Shown here: in pieces, positions 3,077-49,441 of the stretch | Position numbering within the stretch: the first letter of the stretch is position 1 | Layout of the letters: each line of letters starts with the position of its first letter | Assembly (NCBI GenBank): GCA_017642695.1 | Contig: JAEPQD010000001.1 | Coordinates: 1,497,701 to 1,561,700, forward strand | DNA from: Parvibaculum sp. | Lineage (GTDB): Bacteria > Pseudomonadota > Alphaproteobacteria > Parvibaculales > Parvibaculaceae | DNA length: 64,000 nucleotides | Direction: 5' to 3' | The notes under the pieces: model-generated | What the model was told of the DNA's origin: nothing | Databases searched by the model: none | The model's input: the letters and a program-made list of their open reading frames with translations, nothing else | Translations under genes and position numbers: made by a program

Positions 3077-3215
3077 GATCGATCCGGAAATACAGTATAC
3101 GGATGATCGGCCTTTTCAGCGGCCGGTTTCGCCCGCGAGACTAGCCCCTCGCAGGGCGCTTTGCACCTGCGAGAAGGCGGCCGAACCGGGGATAAACCGG
3201 CCTCGAATCGGGCGA

Positions 3216-3244
3216 CCGTCACCGAACTGTCATCGAAACGTCAC
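3216..3244 (+). repeat. Pho-box-like triple direct repeat, copy 1
   Basis: Three heptamers at an exact 11-bp period: CCGTCAC, CTGTCAT and ACGTCAC, separated by CGAA and CGAA. This matches the architecture of a PhoB box (CTGTCAT-N4 direct repeats). It lies between the 5' end of ubiA and the 3' end of the Nudix gene, with the orientation pointing rightward, away from ubiA. A similar ~40-bp stretch occurs inside mutY (49132-49160), so this may be a dispersed repeat rather than a dedicated promoter element. Confidence 0.6.
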
Positions 3245-3264: not shown

Positions 3265-3759
3265 TCAGGGTGCGACTGCGAAGGGCGAGGCGGGGATATC
3301 TCCCGCGGCGAGGGCGGGCATATGTTGCGGCAGCGAAGTCGGGAATATCGTTTCGGATGTGGAACGTAGCTCCGAGGGGCTCCACCACTTCATGTCGTGG
3401 ATGACCTCGCGCTCGAGATCGGTCCACCCGTCCCGGTTGAGGGCGGTTATCCCCGTCCAGGCGACGAGGAAGGTCTCGACGAGGAGCCGGTCCTCGCCCT
3501 TGATCTTCAGCACATGCTCCGTGGTCCAGACGGGCGGACCGAGGCGGACGTCCGTGAGTCCCGTTTCCTCCAAGAGTTCGCGCCGCGCGGCCGAGGCGAG
3601 GTCCTCGCCCGGCTCCACCTCGCCGCCGATGGTGACCCAGTAAGGGTCGCGCAGGACCTTGCCGGATGCATCGCCGACCTGCGGGTCGTGCATGCGGACG
3701 AGAAGGAGACGGTTGTCGCCGTCGAAAAGAAGGACGCGGGCGGTTTTACGGGTGAGCAT
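3265..3759 (-). CDS. Nudix hydrolase
   Basis: 164 residues with a complete Nudix box, G-x5-E-x7-REUxEExGU, seen as GEVEPGEDLASAARRELLEETGL around residues 46-69. Nudix proteins hydrolyse nucleoside diphosphates linked to another moiety; the substrate cannot be read from the sequence. Upstream (RVLLFDGDNRLLLVRMH) is the usual first strand pair. The Pro/Ala-rich tail after ~150 is probably unstructured. It is monocistronic: ubiA starts 190 bases further on, and a family B repeat lies upstream. Confidence 0.9.
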   Translation of the reverse strand: MLTRKTARVLLFDGDNRLLLVRMHDPQVGDASGKVLRDPYWVTIGGEVEPGEDLASAARRELLEETGLTDVRLGPPVWTTEHVLKIKGEDRLLVETFLVAWTGITALNRDGWTDLEREVIHDMKWWSPSELRSTSETIFPTSLPQHMPALAAGDIPASPFAVAP

Positions 3760-3946: not shown

Positions 3947-4753
3947 ATGAAGAATCGCGGCGAAATATCCGAAGCGGAAGACCCCGACGACAACCCGCGC
4001 TGCGCGAGCGGGAAGGCGCGGCTCTATATAGAAGAGAGCCTGAGCGCCGGCGCGACGCTAACGCTCGAAAAGGAACAGTCGCATTACCTCGTCAACGTGC
4101 TGCGCATGGGGAAGGGAAGCCAGGTGCTGCTCTTCAACGGGCGCGACGGCGAATGGGCGGCGGAGATCACCGAACCGCACAAGAAGAACTGCGTGCTGAC
4201 GCTTGCGCGGCAGACGCGGAAGCAGGAGCCGCTCCCCGACATCTGGCTCCTCTTCGCGCCGGTGAAGAAGGCGCGGCTCGACTTTATCGCGCAGAAGGCG
4301 ACAGAGATGGGCGCGGCCGTGATCCAGCCCGTCTTCACGGAGCGCACCGTCGTGACGCGGCTGAAGGACGAGCGGTTGCAGGCGAACGCGGTGGAGGCGG
4401 CGGAGCAATGCGGCCTCGTCGCCGTGCCGGACGTGCGCGAGGCGGCGAAGCTCGCCGACCTTCTTGCGAAATGGGACGAGATCGCGCCCGGCCGCACGAT
4501 CCTCTTCTGCGACGAGAACGAGGGACCGGGGGCGACGCGCGAGGCGCTCGAAAATCTCGCGCGCGAGGGAAGGAAGGGTGCGCCACTCGCCGTTCTCGTC
4601 GGACCGGAAGGCGGCTTTTCGCCGAAGGAGCGCGACATGTTGCGCGCCCGGACGGATACGCTCGCCATTTCGCTGGGGCCGCGCATCATGCGCGCGGATA
4701 CGGCCGCCATTGCCGCGCTCGCCGTCGTGGGTTTGGTGCTGGGGGATTGGTGA
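3947..4753 (+). CDS. rsmE: 16S rRNA (uracil-1498-N3)-methyltransferase
   Basis: 268 residues. N-terminal PUA-like part (ARLYIEESLSAGATLTL, SHYLVNVLRMGKG) followed by a SPOUT methyltransferase domain with the knot motif VGPEGGFSPKERDML and, near the end, LGPRIMRADTAAIAAL. RsmE methylates U1498 of 16S rRNA using SAM. I prefer the ATG at 3947 over the one at 3890, which lies just past the end of a repeat and would add 19 odd residues; even from 3947 the protein has a ~20-residue acidic extension. The link to gshA, often seen in alphaproteobacteria, is broken here by a flavoprotein gene and repeats. Confidence 0.93.
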   Translation: MKNRGEISEAEDPDDNPRCASGKARLYIEESLSAGATLTLEKEQSHYLVNVLRMGKGSQVLLFNGRDGEWAAEITEPHKKNCVLTLARQTRKQEPLPDIWLLFAPVKKARLDFIAQKATEMGAAVIQPVFTERTVVTRLKDERLQANAVEAAEQCGLVAVPDVREAAKLADLLAKWDEIAPGRTILFCDENEGPGATREALENLAREGRKGAPLAVLVGPEGGFSPKERDMLRARTDTLAISLGPRIMRADTAAIAALAVVGLVLGDW

Positions 4754-4765
4754 GAGAATATTGCT

Positions 4766-4901
4766 TTCCCACCCTCCCCTCGGGGAGGGTCGAAATTCGC
4801 ATCGCGAATTTCGGGGCGGGGGCTGAACAAACCACTTTCCCCCGCCCCGAGAAATTCTTCGCAGGCTCGAATTTCTCGACCCGCCCCCAAGGGCGGGTGG
4901 G
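4766..4901. repeat. Nested-hairpin repeat, family A copy 1
   Basis: About 136 bp made of several hairpins: CCCTCCCCTCGGGGAGGG at the left, CGAAATTCGC/GCGAATTTCG, CGGGGCGGGGG/CCCCCGCCCCG in the middle and CCCGCCCCCAAGGGCGGG at the right. The reverse complement of the copy at 7407-7547 matches along most of its length. It fills most of the gap between rsmE and the next gene; I see no other feature in 4902-5058. Confidence 0.85.
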
Positions 4902-5680: not shown

Positions 5681-5769
5681 TGTCATCCCGGCACGTGTTG
5701 CCGGGACCCAATCCAGCTCCCCGCAAGATCGAAGGCCAATGGGTCCCGGGAATAAATCCCGGGATGACT
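5681..5769. repeat. Intergenic palindromic repeat, family B copy 2
   Basis: Runs from TGTCATCCCGGCACG to ATCCCGGGATGAC with internal stems (GTTGCCGGGACCCA, GGGTCCCGGGAATAAAT). It is close to the copy at 10951-11039 in its arms. A run of T follows on the plus strand, so it could also terminate transcription from the flavoprotein gene. The rest of the 371-base gap, 5770-6020, holds no gene that I can support, only the probable promoter region of gshA. Confidence 0.75.
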
Positions 5770-7406: not shown

Positions 7407-7547
7407 TTCCCACCCGCCCTTGGGGGCGGGTCGAAAAATCCGGCAGGATTTTTCGGGGCGGGGGCCGGACCCAGCAACTTCCCCCGCCCCGAAATTCGCT
7501 TCGCTATCGCTCGCTAATTTCGACCCTCCCCGAGGGGAGGGTGGGAA
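7407..7547. repeat. Nested-hairpin repeat, family A copy 2, inverted relative to copy 1
   Basis: About 141 bp; its reverse complement aligns with 4766-4901 from CCCACCCTCCCC at one end to GGGCGGGTGGG at the other, differing mainly in the inner loops. The two copies bracket the flavoprotein gene and gshA in inverted orientation. It sits in the convergent gap between gshA and the amidohydrolase and could serve as a bidirectional terminator. Confidence 0.85.
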
Positions 7548-10950: not shown

Positions 10951-11039
10951 TGTCATCCGGGGGTTTGTTCCCGGGACCCATTAGCTTCTCATTTTGCTGC
11001 GGCGGGGATTGAGTCCCGGCAACAAGTGCCGGGACGACA
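10951..11039. repeat. Intergenic palindromic repeat, family B copy 3
   Basis: Starts TGTCATCCGGGGGTTTG and ends GTGCCGGGACGACA; includes CCCGGGACCCATT and GAGTCCCGGCAACAAG, shared with copy 2. It lies between two convergent transcripts and could act as a terminator for either one. Confidence 0.75.
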
Positions 11040-14259: not shown

Positions 14260-15900
<1,641 letters not shown>

Positions 15901-47667: not shown

Positions 47668-48195
47668 CTAGTCTTGGCCGCGCGCGCCGATGATCCTTTC
47701 GCCGAGCTTCTCGAGCGCCTGTTTCAGCGCCGGTTCTTCAATCTTTTCAAGGTCTTGTGCGAGTGCGGCGCGCTCGCCGGTGCTGAGGGCCCGGATCTTT
47801 CTGTAACGCGGACGCGGCTTCGCGGGCAACGGGCCTTGCACGAGCTTGAGGCGGGCGACGGCGCTGTACCCATAATAGGAGTTGATGCGCTCGACGATCT
47901 GCGGCTCGAGATGCCGGATCTCGACCGCGATGGGCCCGTCGACACGGACGGTGAGCGTCGCGCCGCTGCGCTGGCCCTTGCCGCCGGTATCGCCCGAACC
48001 CCTTGGAAAGACGAGCTTTTCCGGCGACGAGAACTCGGCGAGCCCGCCCCCCACGATCTCCGGCCAATGCGCGAGGACATGCGCCTCGCGGAAGCCGCGC
48101 TTGGCGAAGGCCGATTGCGCGGCGGCGAGCACGCGCGCGCCGATGGGCGGCGGGCGGTAGCGCATCGAGGCGACGGGGCGGCCATATCCGGTCAT
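47668..48195 (-). CDS. DUF721 (DciA-like) protein
   Basis: 175 residues. The DUF721 core is KRGFREAHVLAHWPEIVGGGLAEFSSPEKLVFPRG and the later VEIRHLEPQIVERINSYYGYSAVARLKLVQGPLP. DciA-type proteins of this family help load the replicative helicase; whether this one does is an inference. I chose the ATG at 48195 (MTGYGRPVASMRYRPP); other ATGs at 48201 and 48165 are possible and none has a strong ribosome site. It is divergent from mutY. Confidence 0.85.
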   Translation of the reverse strand: MTGYGRPVASMRYRPPPIGARVLAAAQSAFAKRGFREAHVLAHWPEIVGGGLAEFSSPEKLVFPRGSGDTGGKGQRSGATLTVRVDGPIAVEIRHLEPQIVERINSYYGYSAVARLKLVQGPLPAKPRPRYRKIRALSTGERAALAQDLEKIEEPALKQALEKLGERIIGARGQD

Positions 48196-48268
48196 GGCGC
48201 GCATTCTGACTCGAAATCGCGGCCCATGCGAATTGACGGCACGGGGTCTTCCAAGCGATGAGTAGAGG

Positions 48269-49441
48269 ATGGCGGCGAAGAGCAGGAACCTGAGAGAAAA
48301 AACCAGCAAAAACAACGGCAAAGCGGTCGCCGCGCCGCTGCTCGCCTGGTATGACGGGCATGCGCGCGTCTTGCCTTGGCGCGCGCGAAAGGGCGAGCGC
48401 GCGGACCCTTATGCCGTCTGGCTTTCCGAAATCATGCTGCAGCAGACGACGGTGGCGACGGTCGGCCCCTATTTCATGCGGTTTCTCAAGCGCTGGCCGA
48501 CGGTCGAGGCGCTCGCCGCCGCGCCGCAGGAAGAGGTGATGAAGGAGTGGGCGGGGCTCGGCTATTACAGCCGGGCGCGCAACCTCCATGCCTGCGCGAA
48601 GACGGTATCTTCCGACCACGGAGGAAAATTTCCCGATACGGTGGAAGAGCTTGGGAATCTGCCGGGGATAGGTCCCTACACGGCGGCGGCGATTTCGGCG
48701 ATCGCGTTCGGGCGGAACGCGACGGTGGTCGACGGTAACGTGGAGCGCGTGGTGGCGCGGCTCTTCGATTTGCGGACGCCGCTTCCACAGGTGAAGCCCG
48801 AAATCCGGGAAAAGGCCGCGACGTTGACGCCGGAAAAGCGGGCAGGCGACTTCGCGCAGGCGATGATGGACCTCGGCGCGACGGTCTGCACACCGAAGAA
48901 CCCTGCCTGCAATCGCTGTCCGATCAATGACTTGTGCGATGCGAGGGCGGCGGGGACGCAAAGCGTGCTGCCTGCGCGCGCACCGAAGAAGCCGAAACCG
49001 ACAAGGCGCGGCGCCTGCTTCTGGCTGACAAGGGGGAACGAGGTCTGGCTCCGCCGCCGGCCGCAAAAGGGGCTTCTCGGCGGCATGATGGAGGTGCCGG
49101 GCACGCCCTGGGACAGGCGCGAGGCGGCCGACTGTCATCGAACTGTCAATGAAACGTCACAAATGGATTCGGGGGCTCCGGCGCGGGGCGGGGATAACCC
49201 GTTCGGGCATGCGCCGCTCGATGCGACATGGAAACTTGTCCCCGGTTTCGTGAGCCACACCTTCACGCATTTCCATCTGGAGCTCGATGTCTATGTGGCG
49301 GCGACGCGCAGGAAACTTGTCCCCGGGGAGGGAATGTGGGTGCCGCTCGACGAGATCGCGGGCGAGGCGCTGCCGACCGTGATGCGGAAGGTGGCCGCAC
49401 ACGCGATGCCGGACGCGGGATCGCTCTTCGCGAAAAGGTGA
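48269..49441 (+). CDS. mutY: A/G-specific adenine glycosylase
   Basis: 390 residues. MutY removes A opposite 8-oxoG. The catalytic Glu is in WLSEIMLQQTTV, the HhH motif is LPGIGPYTAAAI, the catalytic Asp is in VVDGNVERVVARL, and the 4Fe-4S cluster cysteines are CTPKNPACNRCPINDLC (C-x6-C-x2-C-x5-C). The C-terminal Nudix-like domain includes GLLGGMMEVPGTPW and SHTFTHFHLEL. Between them, residues ~286-313 (ADCHRTVNETSQ...) come from a Pho-box-like repeat inserted in frame and do not look like MutY sequence. Confidence 0.96.
   Translation: MAAKSRNLREKTSKNNGKAVAAPLLAWYDGHARVLPWRARKGERADPYAVWLSEIMLQQTTVATVGPYFMRFLKRWPTVEALAAAPQEEVMKEWAGLGYYSRARNLHACAKTVSSDHGGKFPDTVEELGNLPGIGPYTAAAISAIAFGRNATVVDGNVERVVARLFDLRTPLPQVKPEIREKAATLTPEKRAGDFAQAMMDLGATVCTPKNPACNRCPINDLCDARAAGTQSVLPARAPKKPKPTRRGACFWLTRGNEVWLRRRPQKGLLGGMMEVPGTPWDRREAADCHRTVNETSQMDSGAPARGGDNPFGHAPLDATWKLVPGFVSHTFTHFHLELDVYVAATRRKLVPGEGMWVPLDEIAGEALPTVMRKVAAHAMPDAGSLFAKR
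49132..49160 (+). repeat. Pho-box-like triple direct repeat, copy 2, inside mutY
   Basis: CTGTCAT-CGAA-CTGTCAA-TGAA-ACGTCAC: three heptamers at 11-bp period, nearly the same as 3216-3244, with matching sequence continuing on the right (CAAATGGATTCGG here, CAAACGAATCCGG there). It is read through in the mutY frame. As no promoter is expected here, its presence supports a mobile or dispersed repeat. Confidence 0.75.

Follow-up and report, generated by a model that had tools for sequence, protein, structure and literature searches.

The arrays described here recall several known DNA elements of bacteria. The E. coli Pho-box consensus consists of CTGTCAY-like heptamers placed every 11 bp; KOPS, Chi and matS are single motifs of 8-13 bp found genome-wide, KOPS and Chi acting in one orientation; and the strand skew of bacterial chromosomes changes at ori and ter. 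Passages of PMC4331003 and PMC7468209 describe dozens of dispersed, specific DNA sites for Noc and SlmA, and excerpts of PMC4285127 and PMC4468827 portray the Caulobacter origin, Cori, as a set of sites for the response regulator CtrA together with weak DnaA W-boxes, TCCCCA. The latter source also states, in the same portion, the prevailing view that bacterial chromosomes replicate from one origin, and skews near yeast origins are reported in part of PMC3459929.

The element taken up here is an oriented array of three Pho-box-like heptamers inside the mutY gene of a Parvibaculum species, one member of a dispersed family. Like a Pho box, it has heptamers at 11-bp steps, and family members at pstS and at a PHO4 transporter gene share one orientation to those genes; unlike a Pho box, it has about 65 further copies, most of them away from promoter positions; these carry satellites, are evenly spaced and go with a one-way skew over 20 kb. 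The arrays share with Noc and SlmA sites their dispersal as dozens of specific DNA sites but are polar direct repeats with a second motif and a strand skew, and they share with KOPS, Chi and matS the character of genome-wide polar or regional motifs, whereas the skew linked to them is broad over sequence contexts and not that of one motif. An upward skew change (on average, in the cultivated surfactant degrader P. lavamentivorans DS-1) and a replication-type G/C signature liken them to replication origins; in contrast to oriC they are one-way, a chromosome that also has an ordinary ori/ter skew carries about 65 of them, and they lack an AT-rich region and almost all canonical DnaA boxes. Cori offers an apparent parallel in that response-regulator-type boxes seem to stand beside TTRTCCCCG satellites, which share TCCCC with the W-box, but the arrays are repeated about 65 times, and the inferred oriC region of DS-1 contains no cluster of arrays or satellites. 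Among the papers listed from one open-access library, none describes a bacterial counterpart of a skew sawtooth tied on average to oriented arrays.

The mutY array and its dispersed family

The window, the whole 64-kb stretch of DNA analysed, holds two arrays and their attendant features:

3187-3195, + strand: satellite CGGGGATAA at the preferred left position (-30) of array 1
3216-3244, + strand: array 1, heptamers CCGTCAC, CTGTCAT and ACGTCAC in 11-bp steps, between UbiA and NUDIX genes
3245-49131, + strand: stretch right of array 1, followed for gene-strand-corrected GC skew
3447-3455, - strand: satellite CGGGGATAA on the right side of array 1, within the NUDIX gene
48269-49441, + strand: mutY, 390 amino acids, HhH-GPD plus NUDIX_4; the array codes for about residues 288-298
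49132-49160, + strand: array 2, heptamers CTGTCAT (49132-49138), CTGTCAA (49143-49149) and ACGTCAC (49154-49160)
49189-49197, + strand: satellite CGGGGATAA, 56 bp right of the core start of array 2 (49133)
49236-49244, - strand: satellite CGGGGACAA (reading TTGTCCCCG on the + strand), within mutY
49317-49325, - strand: satellite CGGGGACAA, within mutY

A sequence-only reading of this DNA had described three heptamers with an 11-bp period in the mutY frame, and they are found as described at 49132-49160, in exact 11-bp steps and with the whole array in frame within the open frame 48269-49441. The same reading placed an insert of about 27 residues between the catalytic part of MutY and a Nudix-like domain; the insert is real, but its size and place differ. 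The array codes for about 11 residues and lies inside the NUDIX_4 Pfam match (residues 250-377), and the protein is extended by about 16-25 residues because its segment from EVP to HTFTH counts 52 residues, against 27-36 in 49 of 50 parsed homologs from other genera (80 homologs were compared, of which 30 were unparsable; one parsed homolog has 59 residues). A PDB search with MutY returns MutY homologs. When MutY is aligned across relatives, as the sequence-only reading had suggested, all 12 readable proteins from array-rich species have the array-coded insert and all 12 from array-poor species lack it (the MutY of G008 is cut short, and G022 and G023 gave none that was usable). A gene of the DciA family, a helicase-loader family, stands head to head with mutY at 47668-48204.

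The second array, reported earlier as non-genic with the same right flank, is present at 3216-3244 and lies outside any gene called by a codon-usage gene caller made for this analysis; the right flanks of the two arrays are similar, a 53-nt pair being 81% identical. In the window, an 11-bp pair pattern matches four times, at arrays 1 and 2 only (shuffle mean 0.75; 1 of 100 shuffles reaches 4), and all five CGGGGAYAA words fall within about 240 bases of the two arrays (mean 0.85 in the shuffled window; 0 of 100 shuffles reach 5). Two other repeat pairs in the window, 4766-4901 with 7409-7547 and 5681-5768 with 10952-11039, have inverted arms (94-97% and 80% complementary, respectively) and, as far as seen, no relation to the arrays.

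The sequence-only reading had named, as a finding that would refute it, that the copy at 3216 be the only other one, arisen by chance, and had proposed a genome search; that search instead uncovers a dispersed family. With a 101-base query centred on the array in mutY, BLAST finds 27 places in the source genome, the query place included, and the pattern TGTCAYNNAAMYGTCAYNRAAMYGTCAC with up to three mismatches finds 68 (28 forward, 40 reverse), its reversed control giving 0 matches. The 68 aligned arrays share the core GAC-TGTCAYCGAAC-TGTCAYNRAAA-CGTCAC-AAA, other columns being poorly conserved. Their spacing is more even than chance (CV 0.66 on contig 1, C1, p 0.003, and 0.54 on contig 2, C2, p 0.001, for a random expectation of about 0.95), and arrays facing the same way follow one another in longer runs than expected by chance on contig 1 (p 0.012), with no such excess on contig 2 (p 0.32).

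With the same gene caller, the 68 source arrays fall into 22 convergent, 30 tandem and 9 divergent positions, 3 in genes and 4 unclassed; the two coding arrays besides that of mutY lie in a citrate-synthase-like and a transglycosylase-like gene, both named from sequence. In DS-1, 64 arrays occupy 23 convergent gaps, 25 tandem and 13 divergent ones and 3 genes, against 9.7, 32.0 and 19.3 expected for the three kinds of gap from their intergenic bp (overall p 1.9e-5). This gene context is not as expected of a set of promoters: with 23 of 64 DS-1 arrays in convergent gaps and 13 of 64 in divergent ones, the arrays as a set do not occupy positions upstream of regulated genes. The DS-1 set leaves out the 11-bp-shifted matches at 146444 and 855949 and keeps five matches with three mismatches.

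The satellites form a second, array-bound motif. GGGGAYAW and its complement are concentrated at about -150 to +250 bp around arrays, with a handful elsewhere within 1400 bp; near 127 source and DS-1 arrays, CGGGGATAA occurs 140 times for 1.2 expected and CGGGGACAA 94 times for 1.0 expected. At least one satellite lies within -160 to +320 of 50 of 59 source arrays and 49 of 59 DS-1 arrays (arrays with up to two mismatches). On the left they are phased, 25 of 33 at -20/-21 or -30/-31 in the source genome and 10 of 13 at -18/-19 or -27/-29 in DS-1; on the right, phasing is weak or absent. ACCGGGGAYAA counts run from 13 to 39 in array-rich congeners and from 0 to 9 in array-poor ones.

Several individual loci merit mention. 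L321 (C1:1004154), a degenerate array scoring 18.5 and accompanied by satellites, lies where the strong arrays are 259 kb apart and has a right-side skew of +0.156 and a jump of 0.188 over 4 kb. At L186, about positions 3959-4033 (DS-1 15358-15432), two triple arrays stand head to head, forming the long arms of an inverted repeat around a short centre; the end of dnaA is about 12 kb away. A TCCGTRTACGGA-like palindrome lies between the array and the right-hand satellite in the right flanks of L008, L049, L057, L071 and L075 and at several DS-1 loci, and GAGGTATC and GATACCTC words occur left of other arrays; palindrome and words were spotted by eye and are uncounted.

Distribution, conservation and resemblance to Pho boxes

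Counts with a wide pattern divide 27 Parvibaculum genomes into 14 with 52-80 arrays and 13 with 0-13. One of the latter, G010, has 13 arrays in a 74% complete genome while its subclade otherwise has 1-2, and is a possible intermediate in array loss. Matches turn up in 15 of 385 genomes drawn from the class: 59 in the source genome, 55 in one congener and 1-2 in each of the other 13. For 52 of the 68 source arrays, DS-1 has a counterpart next to orthologous genes and no more than 1.5 kb from the corresponding position; 50 of these lie within 150 bp of it and 51 keep the orientation, in a genome of which array loci cover about 12%. The source array L051 maps to the DS-1 piece containing a weak array, 1220931.

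Because 52 of 68 positions and 51 of 52 orientations are kept in DS-1, the arrays appear to be old and maintained, not mobile. The sequence-only reading had envisaged a dispersed element carrying Pho sites into genes; the dispersal stands, and the movement into genes finds no support in positions so conserved, with only 3 of 68 arrays in genes. Over 21 gene rows, which include two overlapping pieces of one gene, proteins of the source species are 80.1% identical to those of array-poor G002 and 78.8% to those of DS-1, with G002 the nearer of the two in 14 of the 21 rows, as array loss in G002 would predict. On a MutY tree of 24 congeners the array label has to change twice, and the distribution may be read as one array gain at the base of a 15-species clade followed by loss in G002, G010 and G012. 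The array consensus shifts in concert between species, orthologous arrays included: the third unit is mostly AACGTCAC in the source genome, mostly ACCGTCAY in DS-1 and mostly AACTGTCAC in G001 and G013. In G013 many arrays agree letter for letter across 28 bp, a uniformity greater than that of the other species compared.

The earlier identification of the motif as Pho-box-like holds up, as judged from CTGTCAY-like heptamers at 11-bp steps and from a weak copy at pstS and another at the PHO4 transporter of G002. The source PhoB scores 364 bits to TIGR02154, and its gene appears to close an operon read as phoR-pstS-pstC-pstA-pstB-phoU-phoB, the names being assigned by order and sequence. The weak copy lies between phoR and pstS (score 14.1; training minimum 24.1), and DS-1 427064, whose right flank is like that of the pstS box, is taken as the pstS box. 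In G002, the 380 kb examined contain one array, before a PHO4 transporter gene (355 bits) and in the same place as source C1:1742220; the wide pattern finds two arrays in the whole G002 genome. At pstS and at the G002 PHO4 transporter alike, the gene stands right of the array.

Of 27 genomes, 24 yielded a PhoB, with 89-100% identity, and the segment that we take to be its recognition helix is unchanged except for one K-to-R substitution in 5 of 24; a PhoB specificity drifting with the array consensus is not supported, the helix being nearly invariant over the 24 genomes. PhoB and DnaA, the two protein families traced across the genus as possible companions of the arrays, are present in array-rich and array-poor species alike. 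A response regulator encoded beside the weak array C2:185558 was considered as the binding protein and rejected, the DS-1 ortholog of that array having no such neighbour gene.

Strand skew at the arrays

Skew was measured as third-codon GC skew corrected for gene strand. In DS-1 it tends to follow the local array orientation, in places even between arrays 10 kb apart, and contiguous stretches show a sawtooth. The mean profile of the 64 arrays is 0.00 at -4 kb, has climbed to 0.17 at 0-0.5 kb and remains at 0.10-0.13 out to +4 kb. Of 60 arrays, 49 have a positive skew on the right (p 7.6e-7), and the right-minus-left jump is 0.076±0.013, exceeding zero at 45 of 60, against -0.009 at 168 control positions; enough third positions were available at 60 of the 64 arrays for the jump test and at 62 for the tests of gene, fork and satellite effects. 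A decay fit to 66 arrays, 427064 and 1220931 having been added, gives an e-fold reach of 20 kb to the right and 3 kb to the left with an R2 of 0.27 of the 1-kb variance, compared with a mean of 0.13 and a maximum of 0.23 for random orientations (60 trials) and a mean of 0.04 and a maximum of 0.12 for shifted positions.

The source genome and G001 agree with DS-1 on average, not at every array. Over 0.3-10 kb of contiguous DNA, all 6 source arrays and 6 of 7 G001 arrays have a positive skew to their right (the exception, over 10 kb, is G001 2966502), and the jump exceeds zero at 4 of 5 source and 4 of 6 G001 arrays, with no jump over 10 kb at source 1216568, G001 2837958 or G001 2918009. Within 1.5 kb, the source mean profile lies at 0.06-0.09 on both sides from -1 kb and has no sharp step at the array. 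In the window, skew right of array 1 reaches +0.13 and +0.15 at 4-12 kb, continues unevenly at 0.05-0.15 to 40 kb, is about -0.03 at 40-48 kb and then rises to +0.16 in the 48-52 kb bin containing array 2 (standard error about 0.03 per bin). By eye, DS-1 shows four jumps without a listed array, near 1153, 1222-1229, 3745-3756 and 3804-3812 kb; one of them led to the weak array at 1220931, and there is no recognisable array near 1153, 3745-3756 or 3804-3812 kb (L259-L260, L253 and L256).

At fourfold sites, G goes up and C down on the array strand while A and T change by 0.03 or less, and the skew is broad over all 32 codon contexts. In array-poor G002, ordinary replication skew shows this G/C signature too; the A/T odds ratios differ, being 0.27 and 0.52 near arrays and -0.29 and 0.17 in G002. 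A field of half-sites or a single polar motif of the KOPS or Chi type was rejected as the cause, the bias being broad over contexts and the control word CTCAC behaving alike. Arrays with more satellites do not have a stronger skew (rho 0.05).

Besides the array skew, DS-1 has an ordinary, weaker ori/ter skew with an amplitude of 0.058 and ori near 1.31-1.40 Mb, and there are arrays to either side of the inferred ori and ter. The array effect remains after adjustment for fork direction, at 0.201 with and 0.064 against the inferred fork; a fork-triggered process is not supported, since the effect is seen at arrays pointing either way. Nor is there an AT-rich unwinding region at the arrays (AT is 0.33-0.41 around the core and 0.50-0.52 within it), and canonical DnaA boxes are almost absent, with one near 59 source arrays and one near 59 DS-1 arrays. 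That the arrays serve as main origins was rejected on the strength of the global ori/ter skew and the missing AT-rich and DnaA features.

Array-poor G002 supplies a comparison. Variation between 4-kb blocks is smaller there (excess sd 0.067 vs 0.114 in DS-1), and at 13 places orthologous to lost sites its right-side skew is lower, 0.040±0.028; at the eight orthologous places that allow a jump to be taken, the jump is 0.036 in G002 and 0.000 in DS-1 itself.

What the arrays may do

We tentatively propose that the arrays start one-way DNA synthesis or strand exposure, a reading we regard as possible and well short of probable. DNA synthesis or strand exposure is favoured over transcription because of the replication-type G/C signature, the one-way reach and the indifference of the skew to genes. 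Against it stand the lack of origin-like DNA features, the modest share of variance explained, the arrays that have no jump, a jump comparison with G002 in which DS-1 itself shows no jump, and the fact that the proteins are candidates only.

A rather doubtful alternative, yet one to be taken seriously, is that the arrays are anchor or loading points of a chromosome-organising complex that folds, segregates or guards the nucleoid in the manner of Noc or SlmA sites, with the skew a side effect of, for example, a one-way motor. Even spacing and the preference for convergent gaps (23 of 64 against 9.7 expected) fit an organiser well, as do the conserved orientation, the left-phased second motif and the wholesale gain and loss of arrays. 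No organising protein was found, however, the inferred ori and ter both have arrays to either side, and we know of no organiser that leaves a 20-kb one-way base skew, which counts against this explanation.

Transcription could produce the skew if the arrays were PhoB-activated promoters whose RNAs ran many kilobases rightward and exposed the non-template strand to transcription-linked damage. The gene right of the array at pstS and at the G002 PHO4 transporter would suit such promoters, and the sign of the skew fits an exposed + strand. We consider this unlikely nonetheless: the skew is alike for arrays followed on the right by a co-directed gene (0.135, n=23) and for those followed by an opposed one (0.120, n=36), arrays prefer convergent gaps, and the aligned array profile has no conserved -10 after the array. 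Transcription through 20 kb of opposed genes would also be unusual, which tells against it.

It is more improbable still that the arrays are ordinary PhoB promoters of about 65 genes, a large Pho regulon, and that the skew is a coincidence of gene layout. The motif does occur at pstS (weakly) and before the PHO4 transporter, and PhoB is 89-100% identical in 24 genomes, with its recognition helix nearly unchanged; but divergent gaps hold 13 of 64 arrays and convergent gaps 23, array number ranges from 52-80 down to 0-13 despite nearly the same PhoB, and a skew already corrected for gene strand still tracks array orientation. A mobile repeat of MITE or REP type spreading Pho-box-like sequence, the idea of the sequence-only reading, could account for 68 dispersed copies, one of them the mutY insert, and for the many letter-for-letter identical arrays of G013, yet it is very improbable given positions and orientations conserved between species (52 of 68; 51 of 52), the lack of fixed ends, with little conserved beyond the core and varying satellite distances, and a consensus that shifts in concert at orthologous sites as well. 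That the arrays are inversion breakpoints, with flipped segments of ordinary replication skew making up the sawtooth, is hardly credible: sign changes at many arrays would suit it, but the local skew of 0.15-0.16 exceeds the global amplitude of 0.058 and decays within about 20-40 kb, and orientation to neighbouring genes is kept across species in 51 of 52 cases.

Under the proposal of one-way synthesis or strand exposure, each array would be an oriented protein-binding site with three Pho-box half-sites, bound probably by PhoB or a PhoB-like regulator, and the CGGGGAYAA satellites, phased on the left, would serve a second protein. The array would mark the start of a process running along its 5'-to-3' direction with an e-fold reach of about 20 kb, and about 3 kb the opposite way, that exposes or re-makes the strands asymmetrically, whether by strand displacement or by DNA synthesis of a fork-like or break-induced kind; trimming back of an end before synthesis ran rightward would account for the short leftward component. 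About 65 such sites, evenly spaced and biased toward convergent gaps, would cover the chromosome. The sites themselves, their spacing, satellites and conservation, and an average skew that follows array orientation are observed; which proteins bind, that DNA synthesis causes the skew and that phosphate is involved are inferences.

With somewhat more doubt, we suggest that besides its ordinary origin the chromosome may carry about 65 evenly spaced polar sites, composed of Pho boxes with satellites, that launch one-way synthesis over tens of kilobases, as accessory one-way origins or as programmed break-induced replication, and that this system may have been gained once in Parvibaculum and may now be undergoing dismantling in one subclade. 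A skew sawtooth with dozens of teeth, tied on average to oriented arrays, is unlike the one-origin view of bacterial replication. The sites are exact and conserved, and array-free congeners provide natural controls, which makes the cause of the skew, be it synthesis, a loaded motor or transcription, directly testable.
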